NCBI GenBank assembly: GCA_949285735.1
Contig: CASEAQ010000018.1
Coordinates: 1-45,793, forward strand
DNA length: 45,793 nt
Direction: 5' to 3'
Source of the DNA: an uncultured Bacteroidales bacterium
GTDB lineage: Bacteria; Bacteroidota; Bacteroidia; Bacteroidales; Muribaculaceae
Part shown: piece after piece, positions 16,617 to 34,207 of the stretch
Layout: every line of letters starts with the position of its first letter
Numbering within the stretch: the first letter of the stretch is position 1
Made by a program: the position numbers and the translations under genes
Notes under the pieces: generated by a model
What the model was told of the DNA's origin: nothing
Database searches by the model: none
Seen by the model: the letters and a program-made list of their open reading frames with translations, nothing else

Positions 16617-16702
16617 CGCGCTGCCCTTGACTTTATTTTTGTAATAACAGAGCCCATCTATACATTATGAAATACATTACGCCAAGATTCCGATTTTTTT
16701 CA

Positions 16703-16710
16703 TACCTTTG
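16703..16710 (+). promoter_or_regulatory. -7 promoter element of the MNT-HEPN-MNT cassette
   Basis: TACCTTTG matches TAnnTTTG, 16 nt before the ATG at 16727. The -33 region is not clear. Its position argues against the longer reading that would start at 16667. Confidence 0.6.
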
Positions 16711-16726
16711 TAAAAAAGGCATATTA

Positions 16727-17360: not shown

Positions 17361-17664
17361 GGCGACTATTGACACAGGGAAAGCCATCGAAATAGCAAAA
17401 AAATATAAAGATTTGGTCGCAGAACGGTTGCCAATAAAGGCTCTTTATCTCTATGGCTCGTACAGTAAAGGCAACTATACCGACGACAGCGACATAGATA
17501 TTGCGGTCGTAGCGGAACGCATGAGCGACAACTACTTTGAGGACACCCCTTTATTGTGGAAGCTGAAACGCAAGATAAGCAATCTCATAGAGCCAATTTT
17601 GCTCACGGAAGACGCAAACAACCCTCTATACGCCGATATTCTCAAAACGGGAATACTGATATAA
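17353..17664 (+). CDS. Second MNT-domain nucleotidyltransferase of the cassette
   Basis: The 103-aa protein has its own intact GSX10DXD: Gly35-Ser36, Asp47 and Asp49 (YGSYSKG, then DSDIDIAVV). It differs clearly from the first MNT protein, so it is not a recent duplicate; GSYSKG resembles the KNTase/MNT group that often pairs with HEPN proteins of another type. It overlaps the HEPN gene by 8 nt. It could be a second antitoxin, the true partner of this HEPN, or the remnant of a second pair that lost its HEPN gene. A partial repeat element follows at once. Confidence 0.8.
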   Translation: MSEATIDTGKAIEIAKKYKDLVAERLPIKALYLYGSYSKGNYTDDSDIDIAVVAERMSDNYFEDTPLLWKLKRKISNLIEPILLTEDANNPLYADILKTGILI

Positions 17665-17698
17665 TCGCAACAGCACACGGCTCTTTCATTTAAAGTTT

Positions 17699-17793
17699 GT
17701 GGCGGTAGAGCCGTACAACTATCGGTAACCTACGGAAACGTATTCCTTCCCCCAGATAGAGGGGTTACTAAAAATTGGACGGCTTCGCCGCCC
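17699..17793. repeat. Partial copy of the palindromic repeat element
   Basis: A degraded left hairpin (GGCGGTAGAGCCGTACAAC from 17701) and an intact right hairpin (17775-17793, inverted) face each other about 55 bp apart, with GGTAACC and GGGGTTACT spacers that match the longer elements. The preceding GGCTCTTTCATT (17672 on) also occurs left of the element at 20263. It looks like a deletion derivative lacking the central CCTC hairpins. Confidence 0.6.
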
Positions 17794-19806: not shown

Positions 19807-20262
19807 AATTAATCTCCTGTTTTTGAAATACTACTCCATCGATTTGTAGTCCAGAAAAAACACCCTTCTTGAAAAATGCCTCTAACTCCAAATGAAATTG
19901 AAGTTATCTCGCCCCCCGACCTCATGGTACAAAGATTGGTGGTTCTATAATAATATGTATGGCGGTTCTTCCATAGCACAATAATATATTTAAACTATTA
20001 CGACCGAAAGTTAAGAAAAATAATTTAATTTACACGATATTTTTACCCCTCCCCGTTATATATTTTTAACAACACCTCCAATCATTCTTATAAAACGCTA
20101 CTTCATGAGCACAAAATGTGACATAATTTCACAGCCAGAACAAAAACAAACCCACAAAAAACAGTCGCAGCATTGCATAACAGGCGTTTCGGTAAAAGAT
20201 ATGCGAACAGAAGAGGCTCGGCTCTTTCATTCAATCAGTGACAACAGTGTGAAATACACCGA
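19807..20262. other. A/T-rich gap upstream of the LRR gene, no gene supported
   Basis: The 456 bp hold no convincing gene or RNA. AATCTTTG on the minus strand (19937-19930) is a poor -7 match for the LRR gene. A 60-codon reading at 20105 runs into the repeat element and has no promoter or family features, so I do not call it. Confidence 0.5.
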
Positions 20263-20560
20263 GGGCGGCGAAGCCGCCCAACTTTGATGTAACCGGCAGT
20301 GACACAGCCCCAGCGGGGCAAGGAACTGTCGGACACTGTCACCCCTCCCAGCCCTGGGGCCTCGAAGAGGTCCAACGGAGCGCCACTGCCACTCCTATGT
20401 GAAAGGACACTGCACATATACACCATGCTCGGCGGGTTGTAATGCCAAAGCGGCACGTTGGACTTCTTCGAGGCCCTCTGTTGCAGGGGCTGGCATTCCG
20501 ACGGTTCCTTGCCCACTTCGTCACCATCGGTTACATCATAGTTGGACGGCTTCGCCGCCC
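20263..20560. repeat. About 300-bp palindromic repeat element, copy 1
   Basis: Four 20-bp hairpin units lie in mirror order: GGCGGC type (20263-20282), CCTC type (20357-20376), CCTC type inverted (20457-20476) and GGCGGC type inverted (20541-20560). Each ends in AAC, and the last three have GTCCAAC. Outer spacers share GATGTAACC and GGGGCAAGGAAC in both halves; a GCCCC/GGGGC hairpin follows the first unit. The central 80 bp are unique. There is no ORF of known type. Copy 2 is at 33899-34207. Confidence 0.8.
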
Positions 20561-20656
20561 ACATATTCCGCAGCACACCCCTGCCATTTTCTGCGAAAGA
20601 TTGTGGGCGGTGGGATTTTTTTGCCACATTGAAACACAATTGTTACAATAATTTGC

Positions 20657-20664
20657 TTACTTTG
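20657..20664 (+). promoter_or_regulatory. Candidate -7 element for ppk1
   Basis: TTACTTTG differs from TAnnTTTG in one base and lies 30 nt before the ppk1 ATG. No good -33 box was found. Confidence 0.4.
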
Positions 20665-20694
20665 CGAATTAATTAAATCTCATACTAACCTGTC

Positions 20695-22806
20695 ATGGTC
20701 AAAAAGAAGCAGAACATACCCTATATAGAACGCGACGTGAGCTGGATGTACTTCAACCGCAGGATTTTGCAAGAAGCCTCGCGCGAACACATCCCGCTGC
20801 TCGAGCGCCTGTCGTTCTTGGGAATTTATTCCAACAACCTCGACGAGTTTTTCCGCGTCAGGGTGGCTACGCAAAGCCGCATCGCCGAATACAGCGACAA
20901 GTCGGCTGCCGACGAGAGCGAGAAAGCCACAAAGATTATAAAGCAAATCAACAAGCTCAACTCGCAATACAGCGTCGAATATGAGCACTCGGTGAAAGCC
21001 GTGACCGAGGAACTGAGGCAAGAGGGCATCTACCTCGTCAACGACACCGAGGTGAGTGCCGAGCAGCTGCAATTCATTCGCCAATACTACCGCGACCACC
21101 TCAACGGGCTAATCGTCCCGGTGTGGCTCTCGGCAATAAAAATGCTCGACAACGAGACCGACGAGAGCATCTACCTCGGCATCAAGTTCCACTACCCCGG
21201 CACCAAGCGCGCTCAAGTGGGATATGCCTACCTCGAACTGCCCGTGGCTGTGGCTGGACGGTTTGTGTGCCTGCCCGACTGCGACGGCAAGAAGTATGTG
21301 ATGTACCTCGACGACGTGGTGCGATGCTGCCTGCCGCTCGTGTTCGAGGGATTGGGGCTTAGCGACTTCGAGGCATACTCGTTCAAGTTCACACGCGATG
21401 CCGAGATGGAAATCGACAACGACCTGCGCACAGGCACACTACAGAAAATATCGAAAGGCGTGAAAAGCCGCAAGCGCGGGCAACCGCTGCGAGTGCTATA
21501 CGACGCCAACATGCCCAAGGACCTGCTCAAGCGCATACTCAAGAAGCTCGACCTCGACGCGCTCGACACCCTGCTGGCAAGCGGACGCTACCACAACCAC
21601 AAGGACTTCATGAAATTCCCCGACTTCGGGCGCAAAGACTTGAAATATCCCGCATGGTACCCCATATTGAAAAAGGAACTCGACGGGCCCGAAAGCCTGC
21701 TCGCCAAGATACAGCAGCGCGACCGCTTCATCCACGTGCCCTACTACAGCTTCGACTCGTTTATCCGCGTCTTGCAAGAAGCGGCGATGAGCCCGCTGGT
21801 GAAAAGCATAAAAATCACCCTCTACCGCCTCGCCAAGGAGTCGAAGGTGGTGAAAGCTCTCATCGGCGCGGCGCGCAACGGCAAGAAGGTGACAGTGTCG
21901 ATAGAGCTGCTCGCCCGCTTCGACGAGGCTTCCAACATCTACTGGTCGAAGCGCATGCAAGAGGCTGGCATCAACGTGATTTTCGGTGTCGAGGGGCTGA
22001 AGGTGCATTCCAAGATAACCCACATATCCATGACCAAGGGCCCCGACATCGCCTGCATAGGCACGGGCAACTTCCACGAGGGCAACGCGCGCACCTACAC
22101 CGACTGCATGCTCATGACAGCCTCGCGCCGCATCGTCAAGGAAGTTGACGCAGTGTTCAGCTTCATCGAACGCCCCTACAACCCCGTCAACTTCAAGGAG
22201 CTGCTGGTGTCGCCCAATGTGATGCGCAACCGCTTCACCTCAATCATCAACGACGTGATACGCAAGAGCCGAGAGGGGCTGCCGGCAAGCATCAAAATCA
22301 AGGTAAACCACATCACCGACCAACAAATGGTGAAAAAGATATACGAGGCTGCCGAGGCAGGTGTCGAAATCGACCTGCTGGTGCGCGGCAATTGCTCGCT
22401 CGTCGTGCCCGACAACGGGCGCATACGCATCACGGGCATCATCGACCGCTTCCTTGAACACTCGCGCATATTCATCTTCACCGTCGGCAACGAAGAACGC
22501 GTTTACATCGGCTCTGCCGACTGGATGACGCGCAACCTCGACAACCGCGTGGAGGTAGTCACCCCCATCTACGACCCCGAGATACGCGCCGAGATGAAGC
22601 GCATCGTCGAATATGGCTTGCGCGACAACATGCAAGGACGCATCGTCGATGGCAGGGGCGAAAACCTATTCCGCTTCAAGGAGGGCGACACACCGTTCCG
22701 TTCACAGGAGGAACTCTACAAGGAGTACCAAGCCGAGAACGAACGCTACCAAGAGCCTCAAGCCGGGCAAACCATTCCCGGCTCAACAGGCGGCGACAAT
22801 GCTTGA
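20695..22806 (+). CDS. ppk1: Polyphosphate kinase 1
   Basis: The 703-aa enzyme polymerises the terminal phosphate of ATP into polyphosphate and can run in reverse. The N-terminal domain (YIERDVSWMYFNRRIL) begins at residue 10. The head domain and the two PLD-like catalytic domains follow. The phosphorylated His lies in LKVHSKITHI (about residue 440) and the second catalytic His in LEHSRIFIF (about 590). GTGNFHEGNARTYTD and YIGSADWMTRNLDNRVEV are PPK1 signatures. Length is normal for the family. It is followed 156 bp later by the Ppx-type gene, so synthesis and breakdown of polyphosphate are probably linked. Confidence 0.97.
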   Translation: MVKKKQNIPYIERDVSWMYFNRRILQEASREHIPLLERLSFLGIYSNNLDEFFRVRVATQSRIAEYSDKSAADESEKATKIIKQINKLNSQYSVEYEHSVKAVTEELRQEGIYLVNDTEVSAEQLQFIRQYYRDHLNGLIVPVWLSAIKMLDNETDESIYLGIKFHYPGTKRAQVGYAYLELPVAVAGRFVCLPDCDGKKYVMYLDDVVRCCLPLVFEGLGLSDFEAYSFKFTRDAEMEIDNDLRTGTLQKISKGVKSRKRGQPLRVLYDANMPKDLLKRILKKLDLDALDTLLASGRYHNHKDFMKFPDFGRKDLKYPAWYPILKKELDGPESLLAKIQQRDRFIHVPYYSFDSFIRVLQEAAMSPLVKSIKITLYRLAKESKVVKALIGAARNGKKVTVSIELLARFDEASNIYWSKRMQEAGINVIFGVEGLKVHSKITHISMTKGPDIACIGTGNFHEGNARTYTDCMLMTASRRIVKEVDAVFSFIERPYNPVNFKELLVSPNVMRNRFTSIINDVIRKSREGLPASIKIKVNHITDQQMVKKIYEAAEAGVEIDLLVRGNCSLVVPDNGRIRITGIIDRFLEHSRIFIFTVGNEERVYIGSADWMTRNLDNRVEVVTPIYDPEIRAEMKRIVEYGLRDNMQGRIVDGRGENLFRFKEGDTPFRSQEELYKEYQAENERYQEPQAGQTIPGSTGGDNA

Positions 22807-22962
22807 CCCACTGCTTGCGACATCATTCCTGCGAAGATACTGCCTGCTATCACACTACCGCCACCTCTCGTCGTCCACCGACGACAAAGACCTGAAGGAG
22901 GGGGGCAGCAGGCACACGACATTATTAACCAACTCACATTTCATTAGATTCAACCATCTACT

Positions 22963-23889
22963 ATGGCAAACGACGAAAAAAAGATGAAAAGCGTCGCCTA
23001 CGCCGCAATCGACATAGGCTCCAACGCCGCCCGCCTGCTGGTGAAAAGCATCAAGCGCGACGGCGATGAAATAAAATTCTCCAAGGAAATACTGCTGCGA
23101 GTGCCCCTGCGGCTGGGATTCGACGTCTTCAAGCTGGGCCGAATTTCCGAAAAGCGCGAGAAAAACATGATGCGCCTCATGAAGGTCTATAACCACCTCA
23201 TGAAAATCTACGACGTTGCCGACTACCGCGCCTGCGCCACATCGGCAATGCGCGATGCCGCCAACGGCCTCGACATCATCAAGAACATAAAAAAGACCGT
23301 CGGACTCGACATCGAAATCATCTCAGGGCAGGAAGAAGCCAAGATGGTGTATAACAACCACATCGAGTGCATGGAAGACCGCAACGGCAACTATATGTAT
23401 GTCGATGTGGGCGGCGGCAGCACCGAAATCAACCTGCTATCGCAGGGCCAGCTCGTGTGCAGCCACTCCTACAACATCGGCACCGTGCGCATCCTCAACG
23501 AAGCCGTCACCGATGCCGAATGGCAACACCTGCGCGCCGACATGGCGCAAATAGCCACCGACTACCCCGGCACAAACATCATCGGCTCGGGCGGAAACAT
23601 CAACAAGCTATACCGCCTGCTCGGCAGCGACGAGAAAGACACCGAACAGAAGCGCATGCCCATCGACTCGCTGCGCAAGCTACACGGCAGCCTCAAGTCG
23701 CTCACGGTCGAAGAGCGAATGAGCCAGTTCAACCTCAAGCCCGACCGCGCCGACGTAATCGTGCCCGCCGGTGACATCTTCCTCACCATCGCCGAAATCA
23801 TCAAGGCACAATACATCTACGTGCCAGTGATAGGCCTCGCCGACGGCATCATCGACGGCCTCTACGCCCGCAACCACCCCTCCCTCTAA
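22963..23889 (+). CDS. Ppx/GppA-family exopolyphosphatase
   Basis: The 308-aa protein has the ASKHA-fold Ppx/GppA domain: phosphate-1 loop AAIDIGSNAARLLV (residues 11-24), YMYVDVGGGSTEIN (about 145) and NIIGSGGNINKL (about 206). It would release phosphate from polyphosphate or pppGpp. It is the short form without the C-terminal HD region found in enterobacterial Ppx. It lies behind ppk1 on the same strand with no separate promoter seen and ends in a strong hairpin. Confidence 0.92.
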   Translation: MANDEKKMKSVAYAAIDIGSNAARLLVKSIKRDGDEIKFSKEILLRVPLRLGFDVFKLGRISEKREKNMMRLMKVYNHLMKIYDVADYRACATSAMRDAANGLDIIKNIKKTVGLDIEIISGQEEAKMVYNNHIECMEDRNGNYMYVDVGGGSTEINLLSQGQLVCSHSYNIGTVRILNEAVTDAEWQHLRADMAQIATDYPGTNIIGSGGNINKLYRLLGSDEKDTEQKRMPIDSLRKLHGSLKSLTVEERMSQFNLKPDRADVIVPAGDIFLTIAEIIKAQYIYVPVIGLADGIIDGLYARNHPSL

Positions 23890-23915
23890 AAAAGCGATAG
23901 CGAAAAAATACACGA

Positions 23916-23947
23916 CAAAGGGTGTTGAACCAGTTCAACACCCTTTG
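23916..23947 (+). terminator. Hairpin terminator after the ppx gene
   Basis: A perfect 14-bp stem (CAAAGGGTGTTGAA with its complement) closes on a CCAG loop 26 nt past the stop. Only a short T-run (ATTTTC) follows. Confidence 0.65.
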
Positions 23948-24051
23948 CCATTTTCAATCATCGCCTATAATGAACAGCGACGTATTGTGTTTCAATATAT
24001 GAATGCCGTAGAGAGGCGATTTATTGCGTCTGAATGTGACAGACGTGCTAT

Positions 24052-25035
24052 TTAGAAGGTGTAGCAGGCGGTGAGGGAGAGGCGGGTGAGGCTCCATTTG
24101 TGTTTTTCCGCCTTGGTGGCGAGGTGGGGGGCGGCGACGGGGGATTGGTGGTAACGTGTATAGACGTAGCCCATGCCTATCTCGGCTTCCAAGGCGAAGT
24201 GGCTGCTCAGCGAGAAACGGTGACCATACAGCACTCCTGCCGAATAGAGGTTGCCATCGTAGCAATATTGTTCAAGGTTGCCGCCAAACAGGTCGATGTT
24301 GCCTATGTCGTAATTCACATAGCCGGCATACACGCCCACAAAGTCGCCGCTGTAATGCCCATCGTCGCCTACCCAATACTTAAATGCCGGGAACACGCCC
24401 ACGTGGTGCAGCCGCGCACCGCCCACAGTCCACTGGCTGACGCTCACGGGCAATTCCACCGAAAAATGTTTGCCCACTGCCATCTCGAAAGCCACGTTGG
24501 GCGACGTTGCAGCCCACAGCAGCGCATTGGTCTTCAGCGCAAATTTCCAGCCGCGTCCTGCCTCGCTCTTTGGCTGGGCGGTGTAAGGCACCGACGGCGC
24601 GCCGACGACGGTTGCCGCTTGTGGCATCACGAGTTGCGGCACAATCATGCCGCCAGCCTTGGCAGCCGCCAGCCGCTCTTCCCTCATCTGGCGGAGGTAT
24701 TCCTCGATTCGCTCGCGGGCTGCACGCTCGGCTTCTTCTGCCTCGCGTTTCTTGCGTCGTTCAATCTTAGTTTTGTCCTTAAGCAGGAAATAGCAACTGT
24801 CGTTGGCTTGCTTGTAGCTGAAGTCGGTATCGTCGAGCAGTGCCGACAAGCATTCGTCAACGTTATTGCCAGCCGGCACAGCATCGGCATCGACACCCCG
24901 CGTCAATGTGGGGCTGTATGATATGACCACCCCGTGCCTTTTGGCAACCTTGTCCAAAGCCGCCGACAAAGAAATAGCTGCCGCGGCAGTGATGCCCGAC
25001 AGCATTACAACCAATACCACAATTATCTGTTTCAT
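24052..25035 (-). CDS. STN domain fused to a DUF3575-type outer-membrane barrel
   Basis: The 327-aa protein has a signal peptide (to about residue 20) and an STN-like signalling domain (about 20-88: LSAALDKVAKRHGVVISY, LLDDTDFSYKQ, CYFLLKD). A charged Arg/Glu-rich helix, probably a coiled coil, covers about 90-130, and a DUF3575-type barrel follows to the C-terminal aromatic strand (LSLTACYTF). STN domains normally sit on TonB-dependent transporters and contact the anti-sigma factor. Here the barrel is small, so a signalling or structural role is more likely than import. It is the third gene of the sigma-FecR operon, 5 nt after FecR. Confidence 0.8.
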   Translation of the reverse strand: MKQIIVVLVVMLSGITAAAAISLSAALDKVAKRHGVVISYSPTLTRGVDADAVPAGNNVDECLSALLDDTDFSYKQANDSCYFLLKDKTKIERRKKREAEEAERAARERIEEYLRQMREERLAAAKAGGMIVPQLVMPQAATVVGAPSVPYTAQPKSEAGRGWKFALKTNALLWAATSPNVAFEMAVGKHFSVELPVSVSQWTVGGARLHHVGVFPAFKYWVGDDGHYSGDFVGVYAGYVNYDIGNIDLFGGNLEQYCYDGNLYSAGVLYGHRFSLSSHFALEAEIGMGYVYTRYHQSPVAAPHLATKAEKHKWSLTRLSLTACYTF

Positions 25036-25040
25036 ACTAC

Positions 25041-25919
25041 TTATTCAATTTTTTTCAGCACCACGTCATTGCCGTTGACCGTGTAATCAAGTCCGCACGA
25101 CATTAACACCATTTCGAGCGTCAAATCCTTGTCGCCTGCATAAAAATTGCCCGAGTAAGCAATGCCCTCGCATTTCTCCTCGTTGACCACGTTTATGCCG
25201 AAACGCCGTTCCATCTCTGCCACTACGTTAGCCAAAGGCTCGTTTCGGTAAACGACAACCTCGTCGCCGCTCGCCTCCTCTTCCTCTTTTTCGGCAGCTT
25301 TCTCGCTTGCATCGTCATCGCCTATAAGCGACACTTCGACTTTCTTGCCAGCTGTCACCACCACTTCTTCACCAGCGGCAAGCACCACTTCATCGGTTGC
25401 TTCACCATCGGCTGGCTTCACGCCCACGCTGCCCTCAAAGCACTGCACCACCATGCTCGTGTCTTGCTCCGACACCTTAAACTCGGTTCCAAGCACCGAC
25501 ACAGTGCCAAGGTCGGTCTTAACGGTAAACTCATTGCCCCGCGCCACGTCGAAGCAGGCAGTGCCGTCCAAGTCAACCGTCCTGCCCAGCCACTTCCACA
25601 AGCGTGGCTGGTAGCTGATTTCGCTGTAAGCGCCCACTTCCACTATCGAGCCGCAAGGCAACATCACCCGTTGACCGCTCGCCCCGGTTGTGACCGTCGT
25701 CACTTGCAACATGAACACTGCCGCCAAGACTACAGCTGTGGCAGCCACCGTGCACGACCACACGACAAACTTCTTCACGAAACGGCGGGCTGCGGCAGCC
25801 TCGGCTTCGCGCAACTCAGCCCGGCGAAGGGCAAGCTGCTCGCCAAGTTCTTCCTTCCTTGCAAACACCTCATGCCTCAAGGGGAAACTGCTTATGTCTA
25901 TCCGTTCAAAGTCCATCAT
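25041..25919 (-). CDS. FecR-family anti-sigma factor
   Basis: The 292-aa inner-membrane protein has a cytoplasmic N-terminus (about 1-50), one transmembrane helix (about 52-75: FVVWSCTVAATAVVLAAVF), a periplasmic FecR domain (about 80-200, with LPCGSIVEVGAYSEISY and TVSVLGTEFKV) and a C-terminal STN-like DUF4974 domain (about 225-292, ending NGNDVVLKKIE). An acidic Glu/Ala-rich insert (about 205-220) joins the two. It should hold the sigma factor inactive and receive a signal from the STN domain of the next protein. It is 6 nt downstream of the sigma gene. Confidence 0.88.
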   Translation of the reverse strand: MMDFERIDISSFPLRHEVFARKEELGEQLALRRAELREAEAAAARRFVKKFVVWSCTVAATAVVLAAVFMLQVTTVTTGASGQRVMLPCGSIVEVGAYSEISYQPRLWKWLGRTVDLDGTACFDVARGNEFTVKTDLGTVSVLGTEFKVSEQDTSMVVQCFEGSVGVKPADGEATDEVVLAAGEEVVVTAGKKVEVSLIGDDDASEKAAEKEEEEASGDEVVVYRNEPLANVVAEMERRFGINVVNEEKCEGIAYSGNFYAGDKDLTLEMVLMSCGLDYTVNGNDVVLKKIE

Positions 25920-25925
25920 GCGCCA

Positions 25926-26531
25926 CTATATAATGTAATACCTAAGCAATACCAATATGGCAGCTTCGCCAAAGTAGCGAGCAAGCACCTTGTTCTCCCT
26001 CAGCCGGGTAAGCGCATTGTTCGACGTGTTGTAAACCGTGCGCTTGCTCACGGCAAGAATCTCGGCAACCTCATCTATTCCAAGCCCCTTATAATAACGC
26101 AGATACAAAATCTCTCGCTGCTGTTTGCTCAGTTTGCCGAGCTCTTCCTGAAAAATGCGGTATTTCTCGCGCTCACCCTCGCCGGCAATAATCGCACTCT
26201 CGGCATCGAGTTCCAAGTCGAAATCATAGTCTTCTGCCACATTTTCGTCAAGGCTGTGGGTGTTGCGCGATGCCGCACTGTGCATCTCGTTTATTAGCAG
26301 GTTTTTCAACGACTGGCATAAATAGGCCGCTATGGAATTTGGCACGGCGAGGCTCTTGCGCTTCTCGAATATGTTCATGAACAACGCCTGTATGGCATCG
26401 ACCACAGTCGCCTCGTCGGCAATTATCTTCATTCCATAGCCGTAAAGCAAATCGGCATAGCAGTCATACAGCGCACTGTATGCCGCCTCGTCGCCTTTAA
26501 CGATGTCGTTCCACTTTACCGCCTCTTTCAT
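25926..26531 (-). CDS. ECF RNA polymerase sigma factor with C-terminal hydrophobic tail
   Basis: The 201-aa protein has sigma region 2 (AAYSALYDCYADLLYGYGMKI, then DAIQALFMNIFE) and region 4 (LSKQQREILYLRYYKGLGIDEVAEIL, VSKRTVYN) of the Bacteroidota ECF type. The last 15 or so residues are hydrophobic (EAAILVLLRYYII), unusual for an ECF factor and perhaps a membrane contact. I chose the ATG at 26531; the longer reading begins with a TTG at 26564 and adds residues that families lack. It leads a three-gene operon with FecR and the STN-barrel protein. Confidence 0.9.
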   Translation of the reverse strand: MKEAVKWNDIVKGDEAAYSALYDCYADLLYGYGMKIIADEATVVDAIQALFMNIFEKRKSLAVPNSIAAYLCQSLKNLLINEMHSAASRNTHSLDENVAEDYDFDLELDAESAIIAGEGEREKYRIFQEELGKLSKQQREILYLRYYKGLGIDEVAEILAVSKRTVYNTSNNALTRLRENKVLARYFGEAAILVLLRYYII

Positions 26532-26639
26532 AAAATAGACAAGATAATCGCCGATTTTTACCAAAAAATCGCCTTGATTTTTTAAGATAACATTTTACCA
26601 TACTCGGCAAGCACACGATGCCCGCCCCAAAAGGACAGA

Positions 26640-26671
26640 CAAATATAGTGCAAGTCGCACACATAAGCAAA
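26640..26671 (-). promoter_or_regulatory. Promoter of the ECF sigma operon
   Basis: TTTG (26671-26668), a 20-bp spacer and TATATTTG (26647-26640) lie on the minus strand. The spacer ends in CGACTTGCAC, which closely resembles CGACTTTCGC before the -7 boxes of the HTCS promoters. The leader to the ATG is about 100 nt and holds no clear structure. Confidence 0.7.
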
Positions 26672-26778
26672 TCACGCCCACAAGTTTTCCGCCGTTACTC
26701 ACCCTACGGCAGCAACCGCAACCTGCCATCTTAGCCGATGAAATAAGGGTTTTCGGGCAGCGAGGGCGGCTTGGCAAA

Positions 26779-26807
26779 AAAAATTTTCAACTTTATTGAA
26801 AATTTTT
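26779..26807. repeat. A/T-rich perfect hairpin upstream of the ECF operon
   Basis: AAAAATTTTCAA (26779-26790) and its complement (26796-26807) make a 12-bp stem with a 5-nt loop. A/T content makes it a poor terminator. It could be a regulator site or chance. Confidence 0.4.
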
Positions 26808-26923
26808 CTTCCAGGCATGGTAAAAACAGGTACGTCAGTTGTCACTAATATGAAAAGCATACAAAATACTATGTAGCTTCACAATAAAATTTGAGATGTA
26901 ATTGGATAACATATGTGTAGGTG

Positions 26924-26957
26924 TTGGCTTGATGGGAATCAAGTCAACATTTTTTTT
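26924..26957 (+). terminator. Orphan plus-strand Rho-independent terminator
   Basis: A 10-bp stem (TTGGCTTGAT/ATCAAGTCAA, one G-T pair), a GGGA loop and eight Ts form a good terminator on the plus strand. No plus-strand gene precedes it: the flanking sigma and ilvC genes are on the minus strand. It may end a small RNA or a tiny ORF from the 26808-26923 stretch. Confidence 0.65.
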
Positions 26958-27021
26958 GTTGCCTCGCAGCAACAGCCCCGTGAGATGCGACTAATCGTGT
27001 TTCCACGACATTGTGGCAACG

Positions 27022-27066
27022 AAAAAGCGAGCTTCCCCACTCGAAAGTTGTGGGAAAACTCGCTTT
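27022..27066 (-). terminator. ilvC operon terminator
   Basis: AAAGCGAG and CTCGCTTT (27024-27031 and 27059-27066) pair with an inner C/G-rich stem. On the minus strand the hairpin runs into TTTTT. It lies 38 nt past the ilvC stop, after a separate 8-bp GC hairpin at 27077-27096. Confidence 0.75.
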
Positions 27067-27103
27067 GCTTCTACGTCGCGCGCCATGGGGCGCGCGTGTG
27101 TGC

Positions 27104-28150
27104 TTAGTTGTTTTCGGGACGGAGCTTGCGCACGGTCTCACCTGTACGCCACATCTCGCTTTCACGCAATGCCTTCAGCTCGGCATTCAGCTTTTCGCGA
27201 TAGTCGGGCTGGCTATTGGTGTCAATCGAGATTTGAGCCTCGTTGCCAGTCTTCACGCTCTCATAGAGCTTTTCCATGACGGGCTTGATGGCATCGTGGA
27301 AGGGGCCCATCCAGTCGAGCGCGCCGCGCTGTGCGGTGGTCGAGCAGTTGGCATACATCCAGTCCATACCCTTGGCAGCAAACAGCGGCATGAGCGACTG
27401 CGTGAGTTCCTCAACTGTCTCGTTGAAGGCTTCCGACGGGGTGTGACCGTTTTCGCGCAACACCTCATACTGAGCCAAGAGCAAACCTTGGATTGCACCC
27501 ATCAGCGAACCGCGTTCGCCAGTGAGGTCGCTGTAAACTTCACGCTTGAACGTGGTTTCAAACAAGTAGCCCGAACCAACACCGATGCCGAGCGCGATGC
27601 AACGGTCGAGTGCCTTGCCCGTAGCGTCTTGATAAACGGCATAGCTTGAGTTGATGCCCCTGCCCTGCAAGAACATCGTGCGCAACGATGTGCCCGAACC
27701 CTTGGGGGCGACCATTATCACGTCAACGTCGGCAGGCGGAACGATGCCAGTGCGATCGCTGTAGGTGATGCCGAAGCCGTGTGAGAAATAGAGAGCCTTG
27801 CCGGCAGTCAACTGTGCCTTGATGGTGGGCCACAAAGCAATCTGTGCGGCATCGCTCAACAGATACTCGATGATGGTGCCGCGCTTGGCAGCCTCTTCAA
27901 TCTCGAAAAGCGTCTCACCGGGAACCCAGCCATCGGCTACAGCCTTGTCCCAAGTCTTGCTGTCCTTGCGCTGACCTACAATTACCTTGAAGCCATTGTC
28001 GCGCAAATTGAGCGCCTGACCCGGACCTTGAACACCATAACCGATAACGGCAATGGTCTCGTCTTTCAACACTTCCCTTGCCTTTTCCAACGTAAACTCG
28101 TCGCGGGTGACAACTTTCTCGTCAACACCGCCAAAATTCAAAATTGCCAT
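27104..28150 (-). CDS. ilvC: Ketol-acid reductoisomerase
   Basis: The 348-aa enzyme performs the second common step of valine and isoleucine synthesis, reducing and rearranging acetolactate with NADPH or NADH and Mg. The Rossmann motif is IAVIGYGVQGPGQALNLRD (residues 34-52). APKGSGTS and LTGERGSLMGAIQGL carry substrate and metal ligands (Asp and Glu in the SDLTGERG region). Length is near the class I size, with a small extension. It is the last gene of the ilv operon, 63 nt after the thioesterase, and a terminator follows. Confidence 0.97.
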   Translation of the reverse strand: MAILNFGGVDEKVVTRDEFTLEKAREVLKDETIAVIGYGVQGPGQALNLRDNGFKVIVGQRKDSKTWDKAVADGWVPGETLFEIEEAAKRGTIIEYLLSDAAQIALWPTIKAQLTAGKALYFSHGFGITYSDRTGIVPPADVDVIMVAPKGSGTSLRTMFLQGRGINSSYAVYQDATGKALDRCIALGIGVGSGYLFETTFKREVYSDLTGERGSLMGAIQGLLLAQYEVLRENGHTPSEAFNETVEELTQSLMPLFAAKGMDWMYANCSTTAQRGALDWMGPFHDAIKPVMEKLYESVKTGNEAQISIDTNSQPDYREKLNAELKALRESEMWRTGETVRKLRPENN

Positions 28151-28213
28151 AAGCTGTTTTCTTTTTTTTTTTCCGTATGTGTTATATAAATATTTATTCC
28201 GGTATAAAAACGG

Positions 28214-28978
28214 TTATTTCTCAAATTCGGTAAACCTGAACTTAGCGCGGCAATGCACTACCTCGCCATTGACAAGCTCGGCACGGCAGTCCTGCAAGTT
28301 GGTGTCGTCGATTTTCACATCGACAGCCATGCCATAGTGGCACTCTTTCATGAACACAATCTCGAAGCGCGACACCATGTAGCGGTCGTAGTGTTCGAGC
28401 GGCCACTGATTCATCAGCCGTTCTATGTAGCGCACCGTGTTGACGTGGCGGTTGAAATCGACATCGCAGTAGCCAAAGGCATAAGTCGTGCTTATGCGCC
28501 CTTGTTTCAATGAGGTCAACCTCGACGGAGGGGCGATGGGACAAGGCACGTCGGGCCTGACGGTTGCCGCCAGCTCATCAACGGTCGATATGTCGCTCAT
28601 GCGCCGCGTGTGCATGTCGATCATCGCCCACTCCGAGCGTACATACCCTACCACTTCGTCGTTGCAATAGATGGCAAAATTGCGGTACGACAGCAACTTG
28701 TTGGTAGTCTCAAGCCACGTCTTGAGCGTATAGCTATCATTCACCTGAGGATAACGTTGCATCTCGATGGCGAGCTTCAGAAGCACCCACCCCTTGCCCA
28801 TCGGGGCAAAGCGGGAATACCCCACGTCAATCAAGTTGGCGTGCTCGGTGGCAACCCTTATCAACCGATTGACAAGAAATGGCAGCGGCATCAAGCTCTC
28901 GGCGTTGCATTCACCAGCAGCGAGAAAGAACTCATGGGTGTAAATGCCGTCATGCTCCTCTATCTTTCTATCAAGCAT
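28214..28978 (-). CDS. Acyl-ACP thioesterase (FatA/FatB-like)
   Basis: The 254-aa protein has two hot-dog folds as in bacterial and plant acyl-ACP thioesterases. The N-terminal half carries GKGWVLLKLAIEMQRYP and NKLLSYRNFAIY. The C-terminal half has the family motif DVDFNRHVNTVRYIE with the catalytic Asn/His pair. It would release free fatty acids from acyl carrier protein. Its place inside the ilv operon, overlapping ilvN by 19 nt, suggests a link with branched-chain precursors, because branched acyl chains derive from the same keto acids. That link is inference. Confidence 0.85.
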   Translation of the reverse strand: MLDRKIEEHDGIYTHEFFLAAGECNAESLMPLPFLVNRLIRVATEHANLIDVGYSRFAPMGKGWVLLKLAIEMQRYPQVNDSYTLKTWLETTNKLLSYRNFAIYCNDEVVGYVRSEWAMIDMHTRRMSDISTVDELAATVRPDVPCPIAPPSRLTSLKQGRISTTYAFGYCDVDFNRHVNTVRYIERLMNQWPLEHYDRYMVSRFEIVFMKECHYGMAVDVKIDDTNLQDCRAELVNGEVVHCRAKFRFTEFEK

Positions 28979-29547
28979 CTTTCAACCTCCTCTTTTCGTC
29001 GGGCACGTTCTTCGATATACATCGTCACATATTCCTCGGGCGACTTGGTGACAGCTACTCGCCCGCTGCGCACAAACTGGCGTATGTCGTATCGTTTAAG
29101 CTCCTCAAACAGAGCTGTTGTCTCCTCGTCGTGCCCTGTTTTCTCGATAACCGTATATTCGTTGGTTATCTCAAGTATGCGGGCATTGTAGTGGCGTATT
29201 ATCGCCTCAAGGTTCTTCTCGTTGAGCAATTCGGCAGTGGGCACCTTGTAGAGTGCCACCTCCTGATACACAATCTCGTCGTCGCGGTAGTAGAACGACT
29301 TCAGCACATCGATGCGCTTCTCCACTTGCTTCACGAGCTTGGCTATGGTCACCTCGTCGGCATAGGTGGTGATGGTAAACTTGTGTACCCCCTTTATCGA
29401 CGACGGCGAAACCGACAGCGACTCGATATTGAGCTTGCGGCGAGTGAAGATTATCGATATTTGGTTGAGCAACCCCACCCGGTTTTCCGAGAAGACGGTC
29501 ACTGTAAACAGCTCTTTGCTGTTGCTATTGTTGTTTTCTTCTTCCAT
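28960..29547 (-). CDS. ilvN: Acetolactate synthase small (regulatory) subunit
   Basis: The 195-aa protein has an N-terminal ACT domain (TVTVFSENRVGLLNQISIIFTRRKLNIESLS, split by the family Gly-Leu-Leu) and a C-terminal IlvH-type domain. It gives valine feedback control and full activity to the large subunit. I chose the ATG at 29547: upstream Met codons would overlap the ilvB stop, while this one leaves 28 nt. It is slightly longer at the C-terminus than enterobacterial IlvH, with a basic ERARRKEEVER tail. Confidence 0.93.
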   Translation of the reverse strand: MEEENNNSNSKELFTVTVFSENRVGLLNQISIIFTRRKLNIESLSVSPSSIKGVHKFTITTYADEVTIAKLVKQVEKRIDVLKSFYYRDDEIVYQEVALYKVPTAELLNEKNLEAIIRHYNARILEITNEYTVIEKTGHDEETTALFEELKRYDIRQFVRSGRVAVTKSPEEYVTMYIEERARRKEEVERCLIER

Positions 29548-29575
29548 GTGTCTATCTCTATGCGCTGAGTGTGTG

Positions 29576-31288
29576 TTAGTTTTCATATATCTCGCCATTG
29601 CCCAGCAAGATGGTGCTTATGGGCGCGCCGGCAGGTGTCATCGGGTAAACAAGTTCCTCGGGGTCGATGTTTATGTTCAACAAGTAGGCTCCCTTGTGGG
29701 CAAGCATTCGCCCTATTGCGGCATCGAGCTGGTCGAGCGTCTCGACATCTTCGGCTGGTATGCCATAAGAGTTGGCAAGCATCACGAAATTGGGGTTCAC
29801 GAGCTGCGTCGCCGAAAAACGACGGTTGAAGAATAGCGTCTGCCACTGGCGCACCATGCCAAGGAAATTGTTGTTTAGCAGCACGATTTTCACATCAATG
29901 CCATATTGTAATATCACGCCAAGCTCCTCGACGGTCATCTGCAAGCCGCCGTCGCCGGTGAAGAAGCACACCGTGCGTTCGGGTGCTGCAATCTTCGCCC
30001 CTATCGAGGCTGGCAGTCCGAATCCCATCGTGCCAAGCCCGCCCGATGTGATGATGCTGCGCGGGGCGGTATATTTGAAATAGCGTGCCGAGAGCATCTG
30101 GTTCTGCCCCACGTCGGTCACCAGCACGGCGCCCTTGCCGGCTGCCTCTGCCACCTTCCGAGCCACGCGCCCCATGGTGATGCGGCTGTTGTCGTCGAGC
30201 TCGGGGGCTACCACATTCTCCTGCTCCACAGCCCAAGCCTTGTCGAAGCTGGCAAACCACTCGTCGTGCCGCGCAGGGGCGACCTTTGCCGCAAGCCTGC
30301 CAAGCACCTCGCGGGCATCGCCGTGAATGGTGGCATCGGGCTTGATTATCTTTCCAAACTCCGACGAGTCGATGTCGATGTGCACAATCTTCGCCTGGTT
30401 GGCAAAGTGGGCAACGTCGCCCGTCACGCGGTCGTCGAACCTCATGCCCACAGCCACAAGCAGGTCGCACTGCCCTATCGCCACATTGGCGGCAACGTTG
30501 CCGTGCATTCCCACGAAGCCCTTGAACAACGGCGAGTCGCTGTCGATTGTCGAAAGCCCGAGCAGCGTGGTCGTGACCGGTATGTGAGCCTTCTCGGCAA
30601 GGGCGAGCAACTGTGGCTCGCCGCCAGCGATTTCCACGCCATGCCCCGAGATTATCAACGGGCGGCGCGCCTCGTCAATCATTTTGGCAACAGTGTCAAC
30701 ATCGGCATCGCTGATTTCGGGAGCTGGCTCATAGGTGCGCACGAAATGGCACTTCTTGTAGCCCGTCCATTCCATCATCGCCACCTGCGCGTCTTTCGAG
30801 AAGTCGAGCACGACGGGTCCAGGCCGCCCAGTCGAAGCGATGTAGAACGCGCGAGCCACCGCCCAGCGCAAGTCCTCGACGTTGCGTATCTGGTAACTCC
30901 ACTTTGTTAATGGCTGCGTGATACCTATCACGTCGGTCTCCTGGAACGCGTCGGAGCCGAGCAACTCACTCGACACCTGCCCCGTAATTACCACCAGCGG
31001 AGTACTGTCCATCATGGCATCGCCCAGCCCGGTGATGACGTTGGTGGCTGCCGGACCCGAAGTCACCATCACCACCCCGGTGCGACCCGACACACGGGCA
31101 TATCCCTGCGCCGCATGGGTGGCACCCTGCTCGTGGCGCACGAGTATGTGCCTCAACTTGTCGCGATAGTCATACAAGCGGTCGAACACCGGAATTATCG
31201 CCCCGCCCGGGTAGCCGAATATCGTGTCAACGCCCTCTGCAACCAGCGAGCGCATCAATGCCTCGGCTCCTGAAATCATTTCACTCAT
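29576..31288 (-). CDS. ilvB: Acetolactate synthase large (catalytic) subunit
   Basis: The 570-aa ThDP- and FAD-dependent enzyme makes acetolactate or acetohydroxybutyrate from pyruvate. FGYPGGAIIPVFD with the following HEQGATHAAQGYAR holds the catalytic Glu. GDGGLQMTVEELGVILQY and NNNFLGMVRQWQ form the ThDP/Mg motif (GDG, about 28 residues, NN). I chose the ATG at 31288 because the first 25 residues of the longer reading overlap ilvD and lack homology features. It lies 71 nt after ilvD. Confidence 0.96.
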   Translation of the reverse strand: MSEMISGAEALMRSLVAEGVDTIFGYPGGAIIPVFDRLYDYRDKLRHILVRHEQGATHAAQGYARVSGRTGVVMVTSGPAATNVITGLGDAMMDSTPLVVITGQVSSELLGSDAFQETDVIGITQPLTKWSYQIRNVEDLRWAVARAFYIASTGRPGPVVLDFSKDAQVAMMEWTGYKKCHFVRTYEPAPEISDADVDTVAKMIDEARRPLIISGHGVEIAGGEPQLLALAEKAHIPVTTTLLGLSTIDSDSPLFKGFVGMHGNVAANVAIGQCDLLVAVGMRFDDRVTGDVAHFANQAKIVHIDIDSSEFGKIIKPDATIHGDAREVLGRLAAKVAPARHDEWFASFDKAWAVEQENVVAPELDDNSRITMGRVARKVAEAAGKGAVLVTDVGQNQMLSARYFKYTAPRSIITSGGLGTMGFGLPASIGAKIAAPERTVCFFTGDGGLQMTVEELGVILQYGIDVKIVLLNNNFLGMVRQWQTLFFNRRFSATQLVNPNFVMLANSYGIPAEDVETLDQLDAAIGRMLAHKGAYLLNINIDPEELVYPMTPAGAPISTILLGNGEIYEN

Positions 31289-31359
31289 ATTGTTGTTTAG
31301 TCTGTGTGTGTATATATCGTTCGTTTTCAGTTTTCGGTCTATTGTGACGTGCGTGTGCG

Positions 31360-33186
31360 TCACTCACGCACACCGCCACGGTCGGCAGAAGTCACCATCG
31401 AGGCATACGCCTGCAGCGCCTTCGACACCACGCGGTTGCGCTTCTTGGGCTTGAAGGCATCGCTGCCGCGGGCTTCTTCCTCGGCACGGCGCGCGGCAAG
31501 CTCGTCGTCGCCAAGCAGCACATTGATGCTGCGCTCGGGAATGTTGATGTCGATGATGTCGCCGTCGCGCAGCAGCCCCACGTTGCCGCCCCGGGCAGCC
31601 TCGGGCGAGATGTGGCCTATCGACAATCCCGACGTGCCGCCCGAGAAACGCCCGTCGGTGATGAGGGCGCACTCCTTGCCCAAGTGGCGCGACTTGATGT
31701 ATGATGTCGGGTATAGCATCTCCTGCATTCCCGGACCTCCCTTGGGACCCTCATAGATGATTACCACCACATCGCCAGCCTCGACCTTGCCGCCAAGTAT
31801 GCCCTCGACGGCATCTTCCTGCGACTCAAACACCTTCGCCCTCCCCTTGAAGTGGAAGATGCTCTCGTCAACGCCAGCCGTCTTCACAACACACCCGTGC
31901 TGGGCGATGTTGCCCTTGAGCACGGCAAGTCCGCCATCTGCCACATAGGCGTGCTCAAAGTCGCGTATGCACCCCGTGGCGCGGTCGGTGTCGAGCTCCT
32001 TGTAGTAGTTTTCCTGGCCGCCAAGCGTCACCGACCTCACACCGCCGCCCGGCGCGCTCTTCCACAGCCAAGCCGTGTTGGCGTCGAACTTGCTTCCCTC
32101 GATGGCATAACGGTCGATGGCTTCGCCAAGCGTAAGCCCGTCAACCCGCCGCAGCGAGGTATCGACAAGCCCCTTGCCGGCAAGAATGCCCATAATCGAC
32201 ATTATGCCGCCGGCACGGTTCACGTCTTCGATGTGGTAGCGCGAGTTGGGCGCGACCTTGCACAGCACCGGCGTCTTGCGCGAAAGCGCGTCGATGTCCG
32301 CCATGGTGAAGTCGGCACCAGCCTCGTTGGCAACGGCAAGCAGGTGCAGCACGGTGTTGGTGCTGCCGCCCATCGCTATGTCGAGCGTCATGGCGTTGAG
32401 CATCGCCTCGCGGCTCGCTATGCTGCGCGGCAACACGCTCGTGTCGCCGTCTTCGTAATATCGTTTGCAGTTTTCCATAATCAGCCTTGCCGCGCGGCGG
32501 AAGAGTTGCAGGCGGTTGGCGTGCGTCGCCACTATGGTGCCGTTGCCCGGCAATCCAAGCCCCAACGCCTCAACAAGGCAATTCATCGAGTTGGCGGTAA
32601 ACATTCCCGAGCAAGAGCCGCAAGTGGGGCACGCGCTGTTTTCCACCTCGGCAACCGATGCGTCATCGACGCTATCGTCGGCGGCATCCACCATCACGTC
32701 GATAAGGTCGAGGGCGCGCTTGCCCAAGTGCCCGGCTTCCATCGGTCCGCCCGACACGAATATCGCGGGAATGTTGAGCCTCATCGCCGCCATCAGCATT
32801 CCGGGCGTAATCTTGTCGCAATTGCTGATGCACACCATCGCGTCGGCGCAATGCGCGTTGACCATATACTCCACGCTGTCGGCAATAAGGTCGCGCGAGG
32901 GCAACGAGTAGAGCATTCCACCATGCCCCATCGCTATGCCATCGTCGATGGCGATAGTGTTGAACTCGGCGGCATAGCAGCCGAGCTGCTCGATTTCGCG
33001 CTTCACCATCTGCCCCACCTCGTGCAAGTGGGTATGCCCTGGCACAAACTGGGTGAACGAGTTGACAATGGCGATTATCGGCTTGCCCATCTGCTCGGGC
33101 TTCATGCCATTTGCCCGCCACAACGCGCGGGCTCCTGCCATGCGGCGGCCCTGCGTCGATACTGCACTTCTTAACGGAAAACTCAT
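31360..33186 (-). CDS. ilvD: Dihydroxy-acid dehydratase
   Basis: The 608-aa iron-sulfur enzyme dehydrates dihydroxy acids to the keto acids of valine and isoleucine. Family signatures are [16 protein letters not shown] (cluster-ligand Cys), [18 protein letters not shown] (second ligand) and [21 protein letters not shown] near the C-terminus (split here by length). It is the first structural gene of the operon, 224 nt past the leader peptide stop and 114 nt past the attenuator. Confidence 0.97.
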
Positions 33187-33299
33187 GACTTTATATCTCT
33201 CTTTTTTATTGTTCTACATTAATTATATGTGTGCGCGTGCCATATCGGGGGAAACGCCCCTCCCGCTGTGCCCGCCGCGCTGCGGCACATGGGCGTTAT

Positions 33300-33352
33300 A
33301 AAAAAACAGGAAAACCTTTCCGCCGCTGTCGTGTAGTTGGGAGGAAAGGCTT
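33300..33352 (-). terminator. ilv attenuator terminator
   Basis: On the minus strand AAGCCTTTCC (33352-33343) pairs with GGAAAGG plus TTT (33321-33312), with a 21-nt loop. A run of seven Ts (A-run 33300-33306) follows shortly after. TGGGAG just past the leader stop (minus 33406-33401) can pair with CTCCCA beside and into the 5' arm (minus 33343-33338), a candidate antiterminator. Confidence 0.75.
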
Positions 33353-33409
33353 CTACGTGTCTCTTTGTTTCTCTAATTGCGTCACTACGGCATCAACGCG
33401 CTCCCATCA

Positions 33410-33514
33410 TCATTCCACAATAATGCCCACGACAAATGCCACGACGCTAATCGACAAGACGACGTGCAGCACAATCGATAGAATATTGTTGTTGTTGATA
33501 GAAATTACGTTCAT
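33410..33514 (-). CDS. ilv operon leader peptide (34 codons)
   Basis: A 34-codon reading starts at ATG 33514-33512, 22 nt after the predicted transcription start, and ends in TGA at 33412-33410. It contains 7 Ile, 9 Val and 3 Leu, i.e. 19 of 34 residues, in runs such as ILSIVLHVVLSI and VVAFVVGIIV. That composition, the position between promoter and terminator, and the downstream ilvD-B-N-C genes are those of a transcription-attenuation leader: ribosomes stall at Ile/Val codons when charged tRNA is scarce and let transcription continue. A short membrane peptide is the alternative, but the layout favours the leader. Confidence 0.8.
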   Translation of the reverse strand: MNVISINNNNILSIVLHVVLSISVVAFVVGIIVE

Positions 33515-33542
33515 GTCCTCGTTGCTTTTTTATAGAGTGATG

Positions 33543-33574
33543 CAAAGTTAGGCAGGAATATCCAATGATGCAAA
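33543..33574 (-). promoter_or_regulatory. ilv operon promoter
   Basis: TTTG (33574-33571), a 20-bp spacer and TAACTTTG (33550-33543) on the minus strand form a full consensus. The start would be near 33536, just ahead of the leader peptide. Confidence 0.8.
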
Positions 33575-33682
33575 TCTTTCACACAAAAATTGTGCCCCAA
33601 ACAACAATCTAAAACCCCAACCCAACAAAACAAGAAAAAACATTTACACACCTCCCCCATTTGTGTGCAACAAAACCAGATC

Positions 33683-33762
33683 AATGAGGAATGAGGAATG
33701 AGGAATTTTCATTCAGACTGTAACGAGCAGTAGCAGTGAGTAACAAAAATCAATTCCTCATT
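33683..33762. repeat. GAATGAG heptad repeats as an inverted pair without a gene
   Basis: Three GAATGAG-type heptads (33683-33707) face AATTCCTCATT (33752-33762) across 44 bp. The same repeats flank the four-helix-bundle gene at 38523, so this may be an emptied copy of that unit. Confidence 0.6.
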
Positions 33763-33801
33763 AAACAATTTAAATGGTGTACTACAGAATACGGTACACT
33801 G

Positions 33802-33821
33802 GGGCGGCAAAGCCGTCCAAC
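33802..33821 (+). repeat. Extra left hairpin of the palindromic element, tandem to copy 2
   Basis: GGGCGGC, loop AAA, GCCGTCC and AAC form one more unit. The 77 bp after it (TTAACCGA, ATGACG, AGCCCCCGAAGTGGGGCGA) repeat the left spacer of copy 2, so half an element is duplicated in tandem. Confidence 0.7.
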
Positions 33822-33898
33822 CAGGTCTTAACCGACGATGACGCAGCCCCCGAAGTGGGGCGAGAAGCCCTCGGAACACCTCCCTCCGCCACCCAGCA

Positions 33899-34207
33899 GG
33901 GCGGCGAAGCCGTCCAACCATGCCTTAACCGATGGTGACGTAGCCCCCGAAGTGGGGCAAGGAACCGTCGGATACCACTATCTCCACACAATTTGGGCCT
34001 CGAAGAGGTCCAACGGAGCTCCACTGCCATTCTTACATGAATTAAAAAGCACATATCCACCACATGCTTGGTGGCTTGCAAGGCTGCTTAAGCACCTCCA
34101 AAGCGGCACGTTGGACCTCTTCGAGGCCCTGCCGTGTGGGTGCATATCATTCCGAGGGTTCCTTACGTCACCCTCGGTTACATCAAAGTTGGACGGCTTC
34201 GCCGCCC
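33899..34207. repeat. About 300-bp palindromic repeat element, copy 2
   Basis: Units lie at 33899-33918 (GGCGGC type), 33995-34014 (CCTC type), 34110-34129 (CCTC inverted) and 34188-34207 (GGCGGC inverted), the same order as copy 1. Shared segments include GGTGACG, AGTGGGGCAAGGAACCGTCGG and the central CACTGCCAT and AAAGCGGCAC. No transposase or ORF of known type lies within; readings through it are Pro/Arg-rich and differ between copies. Confidence 0.8.

Follow-up and report, generated by a model that had tools for sequence, protein, structure and literature searches.

Two palindromic elements of about 300 bp in a stretch of DNA from an uncultured Bacteroidales bacterium of the Muribaculaceae (assembly GCA_949285735.1, contig CASEAQ010000018.1, positions 1 to 45,793 of the forward strand; this whole stretch of 45,793 nucleotides is here called the window) are probably non-autonomous repeats of the REPIN/MITE type (REP, repetitive extragenic palindromic; MITE, miniature inverted-repeat transposable element), derived from an element whose Y1 HUH transposase has the signature of subclass 1.2. 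They look non-autonomous because a copy that carries the transposase gene (tnpA) together with the same hairpins exists in the same genome. A first-pass annotation made from the letters alone had described element 1 (20263–20560) and element 2 (33899–34207) as holding four hairpins each in mirror order and had preferred a MITE- or REP-like mobile element. The inverted-repeat analysis found the elements and these hairpins where they had been placed, and dispersed copies, compensatory change, a Y1 gene inside one copy and target duplications all support mobility. The proposed searches for copies, a transposase and target duplications were productive, too: a covariance model found further copies, a Y1 gene resembling that of RAYTs (REP-associated tyrosine transposases) lies inside one copy in the same genome, and target duplications flank complete copies of the family in the genus, although not those in the window. 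A lack of other copies, or stems diverging without compensation, had been named as what would refute a structured repeat family; neither was found.

Architecture of the arms and covariation

Each half of an element is an arm of three hairpins, namely A (GG/CC variant), a middle hairpin B and C (CT/AG variant). Hairpin A reads GGGCGGC-GAA-GCCGTCC-AAC and hairpin C reads GGGCCTC-GAA-GAGGTCC-AAC. About 7 nt after A there is an NTAA, followed by the long hairpin B, which consists of CCGANGGT, an internal loop, GCCC/GGGC and ACCNTCGG. A and C thus have C-GNA-G triloops and B has a TA(A/G) foot. Since the two arms are inverted, the same hairpins stand at the 5' side of each strand. The switch between GG/CC and CT/AG, the G·T pair and the AAC flank that had been noticed earlier are real, and in 65 arms of the host genome 62 of the A hairpins and 61 of the C hairpins retain the G·T pair. 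The "inverted spacers" GATGTAACC and GGGGCAAGGAAC are parts of hairpin B, which had been overlooked in each half.

In element 1 the left arm, on the forward strand, has hairpin A (GG/CC, GAA loop, with G-C in place of the usual G·T pair) at 20263–20282, hairpin B at 20293–20332 with its 5' foot GTAA at 20289–20292, and hairpin C (CT/AG) at 20357–20376; the right arm, on the reverse strand, has C in a TT/AG variant at 20457–20476, B at 20498–20530 and A at 20541–20560. In element 2 the left arm (forward strand) has A at 33899–33918, B at 33929–33971 with the foot TTAA at 33925–33928, and C at 33995–34014, and the right arm (reverse strand) has C at 34110–34129, a B without inner stem at 34152–34177, and A at 34188–34207. 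The A and C hairpins were assigned by the hairpin pattern and the arm model, the B hairpins by alignment of the arms and the model. The element coordinates of the first-pass annotation hold, but both units extend beyond them: to the left of element 1 there is a terminal repeat, CTCGGCTCTTTCATTCAAT, at 20217–20235 (forward strand; three differences from the terminal repeat of the genus described below), and outside element 2 there is an extra arm at 33802–33892 (forward strand; A hairpin at 33802–33821 plus B), a direct repeat matched by the model with 60.5 bits. With up to three mismatches the hairpin pattern GTTGGACNNCTTCGNNGCCC has 12 matches in the window, whereas 0.32 would be expected by shuffling. 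One match, at 24496 with three mismatches, is no hairpin of the element family.

Covariation was assessed in 65 distinct arms of the host genome that have both A and C, arms lacking either being excluded. With one fixed structure 97.6% of the cells are paired, and 11 of the 26 pairs are changed on both sides (58 such cells). Five covariation measures were reached by none of 500 shuffles, and slid partners pair in 31–49%, a comparison in which the fixed structure is favoured, as it was derived from the same 65 sequences. Position by position, compensatory change is found mainly in B, where it is strongest in the outer stem (six of eight pairs). The switch between A and C is not the main evidence for covariation because it compares two different hairpins and no pair within A is changed on both sides.

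Two other interpretations of the hairpin feet were considered and given up. A GTTG foot on A was first taken as the REP-like guide, but the TA(A/G) foot on B was then preferred because it is the one that recurs in different TnpA families. Integron attC sites have the motif GTTRRRY/RYYYAAC, of which there are look-alikes at the hairpin foot; they were ruled out, as the copies are dispersed and mirror-paired rather than lined up in one array.

Copies in the host genome and in the genus

The draft genome of the host (2.6 Mb in 85 contigs, 79.76% complete) contains 102 forward and 100 reverse matches to the hairpin pattern with up to two mismatches, versus 2 and 0 for the backward control; most lie in mirror-order units of about 300 bp. 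When the window and 38 further stretches are taken together, 153 matches with up to three mismatches are found, mostly in the order GG−, CT−, CT+, GG+, and these 39 sequences hold 24 strict four-hairpin units. The arm covariance model, with at most 150 candidates scored per genome, finds 121 arms in the host genome at E ≤ 0.01 and 30, 21, 53, 0, 35, 76, 47 and 39 arms in the eight other genomes of the genus; arms thus occur in eight of the nine genus genomes, and they greatly outnumber tnpA. A different repeat of about 175 bp (for example L262, 1271–1445) lies by an arm unit and is likewise abundant, with dozens of listed matches at many places in G005 and G001.

The Y1 transposase TnpA

Two genes of the host genome match PF01797 (Y1_Tnp), with 72.8 and 64.9 bits (cut-off 23). 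One (L032 on contig C56, coding for a TnpA of 150 aa) sits inside a four-hairpin element, enclosed by its inner C hairpins; this element has additional A hairpins to the left. The second gene (L031 on contig C33) is located in a diverged element of the same hairpin plan: in direct reading the outer hairpin is GGCGGC-GGA-GCTGCC, the middle one CCGCAGGT..ACCTGCGG and the inner one GACCTC-GGA-GAGGTC. In an alignment of 10 TnpAs the residues H53, H55, Y114, Q118, H121 and H122 (HxH, Tyr and Q..HH) are invariant, and an HH after residue 90 is present at 68 of 71 loci from family genomes and 78 of 80 loci from named genomes (see below). A profile of the 10 TnpAs matches eight distinct transposase sequences of the PDB, including ISHp608 TnpA (2a6m) and 2xm3, which we take to be ISDra2 TnpA. 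With NF033573 the two proteins score 58.1 bits, which is above the cut-off of 55, and 47.5 bits, which is below it. With NF047646 (REP_Tyr_transpos, cut-off 80) they score 20.0 and 24.2 bits and thus fall outside the class 2 TnpA_REP proteins. They have a HuH motif and Y...Q..HH, which Quentin et al. (2018; PMC6006769) give as characteristic of subclass 1.2; the assignment to this subclass is one by motif.

Arms around tnpA in other bacteria

Of 149 genomes of the family, 71 have a TnpA relative at E ≤ 1e-10. From their 142 matches 71 loci, mostly the better ones, were examined, and 64 of these have at least 400 nt on both sides. The inverted repeats between left and right flank lie above the 99th percentile of 213 mismatched pairs at 53 of the 64 loci and above the 95th at 58. 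A scan of named genomes yielded at least 588 stretches, at least 553 of them with relatives, of which the best 80 were kept; by record title these are mostly from Bacteroidota, eight are from Pasteurellaceae, and Verrucomicrobia, Lentisphaerae, Phycisphaerae and others occur. Among these best 80, inverted arms score above 40 bits at 41 of the 71 loci with full flanks; among the controls, 1 of 60 distal ones and 0 of 69 mismatched ones do so. Subclass 1.2 has been reported to be without REPs and generally without the typical IS200 terminal structures (Quentin et al., 2018; PMC6006769). The inverted arms at 53 of 64 and 41 of 71 loci do not agree with this; they contradict the description of the subclass, not the assignment of the protein.

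C-GNA-G loops were found in 128 of 520 small hairpins from 140 gene-proximal arms of the family versus 0 of 145 from 130 distal arms, and in 102 of 773 from 155 proximal arms of the named genomes versus 2 of 196 from 142 distal arms. The complementary loop C-TNC-G is rarer (14 in the family, 28 in the named genomes) and the hairpins therefore have a strand, which is mostly the one reading toward tnpA. Proximal arms carry the foot TA(A/G)C on their longest hairpin in 39 of 138 and 13 of 153 cases, versus 0 of 125 and 1 of 139 for distal arms. A strict arm grammar, consisting of an A hairpin, a B hairpin with TA(A/G)C foot and a C hairpin, fits 52 of 140 proximal arms of the family and 55 of 153 of the named genomes (together 107 of 293) versus 0 of 130 and 0 of 142 distal arms (0 of 272); on the other strand it fits 7 of 140 and 16 of 153.

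Within one left arm the stems of the GNA hairpins are more alike than after shuffling (0.455 versus 0.328, maximum of 500 shuffles 0.374; 58 loci), which would be as expected if one protein reads both A and C. The higher likeness over both arms together (0.53) was set aside because it is partly built in, the arms being copies of each other. The arms are also dispersed elsewhere. For example, the pattern CCCGAAGGG-N6-20-ATARCC has 93 matches in 23 of 39 genomes reached through the named loci, versus 9 for the backward control; 32 of the 93 are from one Phycisphaerae genome, in 20 stretches of which A, B and C recur in this order. Many arms of these Phycisphaerae copies (L345–L364) run into short tandem repeats of the CGCAACC/TTCAACC type.

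Ends of the units and target duplications

Complete copies in the genus extend outward from hairpin A to a 19-bp terminal repeat, CACGGCTCTTTCATTTAAA. Of 25 units with both repeats (from G000, G001 and G005), nine have at their ends exact direct repeats that are 9 nt or longer, versus 0 of 5000 controls with swapped flanks. Tests that started from the hairpin edges instead of the true ends gave a weak signal at best: 5 of 39 had such repeats versus 0.93 expected, one of the five inside the terminal motif. The length of the duplication was read from 27 units (77–776 bp) of three genus genomes, with the ends set at CACGG..CCGTG. In the 9-bp register the mean identity was 0.617, versus 0.263 in the controls and 0.30–0.35 in the 7-, 8-, 10- and 11-bp registers. 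Ten of the 27 units match at eight or nine of the nine positions (0.0 expected) and two more in the 10-bp register; the other 15 show no match in either. The two outer octets are free of mismatches in 9 of 12 units that have a duplication match versus 1 of the 15 that have none. The target duplications indicate that the units have moved, and that they did so by staggered insertion. As short non-coding units with terminal inverted repeats and target duplication, the genus units have what defines a MITE. A GNA hairpin of at least six pairs is present in 22 of the 27 units and missing from 5, a count that has no control.

At the tnpA loci themselves the picture is less clear. A decayed tnpA copy with arms in G001 (L102) has one terminal repeat about 300 nt to its right. 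Direct repeats of 9–10 nt just outside the arms were found at 5 of 104 tnpA units (0.19 expected from swapped flanks), and the same test shifted by 60, 120 and 200 nt gave 1 of 102, 2 of 100 and 2 of 98, so that a duplication at these units is suggestive only.

Between inverted pairs of the terminal repeat (66 listed repeats with at most one mismatch, from three gapped draft genomes) there was no gene-sized candidate for a DDE transposase, and the only long pair (774 bp) holds no transposase by eye in six frames. The open frame in this 774-bp unit (L331, contig C9 of G005) does not look like that of a transposase and may be host sequence that was captured.

Genomic position

Element 1 lies upstream of ppk (polyphosphate kinase), a gene found in all eight relatives of the genus. 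In G001, G005 and G007 the gap between rpsO and ppk is about 105–140 nt long and free of elements; in the window it holds a gene for a BspA-type leucine-rich-repeat protein (18352–19806) and element 1. In G008 a diverged unit (C, C', B' and A' readable; very short core) is present at the same place upstream of ppk, which is either a shared old insertion or a preferred site. In the remaining four relatives the available stretches upstream of ppk (about 400 nt for G006) show no similarity to element 1. Two species thus have the site occupied, and at least three have it empty. The diverged unit in G008 is the reason why the ppk locus was dropped as proof of a species-specific insertion, and the claim of mobility rests on the target duplications, not on this site.

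A comparison of G005 with G001 showed one G005 unit to be absent from G001 between flanks that match with 99% and 94%, the junction holding another palindromic repeat; two other G005 units have no two-sided match in G001, and for a further one the match has the unit present. By open reading frames (ORFs), 24 units lie 12 times between tandem, 6 times between convergent and 6 times between divergent genes and hence show no preference for the 3' ends of genes. Six of the 24 overlap a mechanical ORF, taken as a chance ORF. At gathering scores there was no Rfam match.

Proposed mechanism and alternative explanations

The hairpins could act as single-stranded DNA, the folded arms being bound by a TnpA dimer, with the TA(A/G) foot on B perhaps used as a guide by analogy with REPs, and TnpA would then cut at the ends of the element. 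As both strands carry the same arms at their 5' side, both could be processed, which would lead to a staggered target duplication. That the Y1 HUH TnpA processes both strands of the palindrome and itself makes the 9-bp duplication, which would be a third route of transposition beside peel-and-paste and DDE cut-and-paste, we regard as unlikely. If it were true, a basic rule of HUH transposition would change.

Several observations weigh against the derivation of the window elements from a Y1 HUH element. The window elements each lack a complete pair of terminal repeats and show no target duplication that could be recognised, no right partner was found for the left terminal repeat of element 1 (20217–20235), and the site of element 1 does not by itself show a recent insertion. 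A nucleotide-exact empty site was not found in the comparisons described above. The intact tnpA copy of the host (contig C56) has no terminal repeat at up to five mismatches, and among 150 tnpA loci of all genera only five have one at up to four mismatches, close only in L102, which is from the same genus. At E ≤ 1e-10 there is no tnpA in G002, G003 and G007 (92–99% complete) and in G008 (85%), despite many arms; either the repeats have outlived their transposase or the gene was lost in assembly. Of the 71 named tnpA loci, 30 are not above 40 bits for inverted arms, including the Phycisphaerae locus (18.4), and the strict arm grammar misses 186 of the 293 proximal arms. Finally, IS200/IS605 elements are not known to duplicate their target, so that the 9-bp duplication may be the work of a DDE enzyme for which the terminal repeats are the substrate.

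This last point leads to the main rival, in which a DDE transposase recognises the terminal repeat and makes the 9-bp duplication; the units would then be its ordinary MITEs, and the arms and tnpA would be passengers or a captured REP system. It would explain the sharp 9-bp register, why some terminal-repeat units have little or no arm (L329, and the 5 of 27 units lacking a GNA hairpin of at least six pairs), and why the terminal repeat is nearly absent from tnpA loci outside the genus and from the intact tnpA copy of the host. Against it stand the decayed tnpA copy with arms that has the terminal repeat behind it and the direct repeats outside the arms of a few tnpA units, although the shifted positions temper the latter; that no DDE gene was seen between the listed repeats of the three draft genomes speaks weakly against it. 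On balance, we consider this alternative rather unlikely.

Also rather doubtful is a domesticated REPtron, in which tnpA is stationary and kept for a use of the host, the repeats being spread by occasional processing. In 54 of the 71 family genomes there are only one or two tnpA matches, a low copy number as in REPtrons, and the arms are far more numerous; however, 17 of the 71 hold three to nine matches, and the decayed second tnpA copy with arms and terminal repeat in G001 as well as the direct repeats at a few tnpA units suggest that the gene has moved. The elements could also be kept for a function in the transcript, as a structured RNA, as a bidirectional terminator or to stabilise mRNA. 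The compensatory change agrees with RNA as well as with single-stranded DNA, and the diverged unit upstream of ppk in G008 is a point in favour. This reading is highly improbable in view of the lack of an Rfam family, the neutral gene context, the polarity of the C-GNA-G loops, which on either side is mostly oriented toward tnpA, and the mirror symmetry and target duplications, which indicate mobility.

Other features of the window

Two further pieces of the family lie to the left of element 1. At 16595–16648 (forward strand) there is a diverged partial arm, the A hairpin of which has a GGA loop (model match with 25.4 bits, E 8e-5). At 17676–17793 (reverse strand) a small diverged unit was found by model and repeat match, with the terminal repeat at 17676–17694 and an A hairpin at 17774–17793; a target duplication was not seen here (one of nine positions matches). 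Between them, at 16667–17664, there are three overlapping genes, by Pfam MNT-HepT-MNT (nucleotidyltransferase/HepT-like toxin-antitoxin type), which are thus flanked by the inward-facing A hairpin at 16595 and the terminal-repeat unit at 17676–17793.

Comparison with known systems

Within the reach of full-text searches of the open-licence literature, no description of hairpin arms or target duplications was found for this group of TnpAs; ISfinder as well as preprints, supplements and subscription papers lie beyond that reach. The three-hairpin arm is a likely DNA partner for a group of transposases that has been described as being without repeats or properties of insertion sequences. It adjoins tnpA in Bacteroidota, Pasteurellaceae and Verrucomicrobia, and it is present in high copy number in a Phycisphaerae genome that also has tnpA. 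With so many pairs of TnpA and arm, the way in which HUH transposases read hairpins can be tested directly.

The MITEs of Porphyromonas gingivalis (BrickBuilt, MITE239 and MITE464) are likewise intergenic in a member of the Bacteroidales and have terminal repeats and, in some copies, target duplications. They differ in that their terminal repeats match those of the IS5 family and that BrickBuilt and MITE464 hold tandem repeats of 23 or 41 nt; in the accessible text the word "hairpin" does not occur and a Y1 gene is not mentioned (PMC4596501). TIRtrons, with their transposases (TIRYTs), have a Y1-type gene between inverted repeats and dispersed copies of the repeat (Di Nocera, 2013; PMC3733652). 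However, a three-hairpin arm is not described there and the word "duplication" is absent, as far as the text of PMC3733652 was available; of the TIRYTs, 20 of 26 are placed in subclass 2.1, and GGGG(A/T)(C/G)A(C/G) is common to most (PMC6006769).

With IS200/IS605 elements (TnpA subclass 1.1, e.g., IS608 and ISDra2) the system shares the protein family, as judged by Pfam and the structure profile, and the subterminal hairpins. We know of no terminal inverted repeats and no target duplication in IS200/IS605 elements. Here the arms are inverted and there are target duplications, clear ones on short units only, and the system is for these reasons not a plain IS200/IS605 element.

Closest are the REPtrons and REPINs (RAYT; TnpA_REP subclasses 2.2, 2.4, 2.5, 2.7 and 2.8), in which a low-copy Y1 HUH gene also lies between inverted hairpin repeats that are dispersed on their own, and in which a short foot, too, stands 5' of the hairpin, GT(A/G)G in REPtrons and TA(A/G) before B here. 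In the REPtrons studied, binding is to only one REP strand, and for at least one of these systems GTAG has a part in how the cut site is chosen (PMC8266576); by analogy, TA(A/G) on B may be such a guide. The system is not one of the described REPtrons, because the protein does not pass the class 2 test and the foot is not GT(A/G)G. Indeed, it has Y...Q..HH of class 1.2 instead of Y...NP of class 2, three hairpins with GNA loops in A and C per arm, the gene inside the palindrome and, in this genus, terminal repeats with a 9-bp duplication. It is therefore best read as a REPIN/REPtron-like system with a new architecture.

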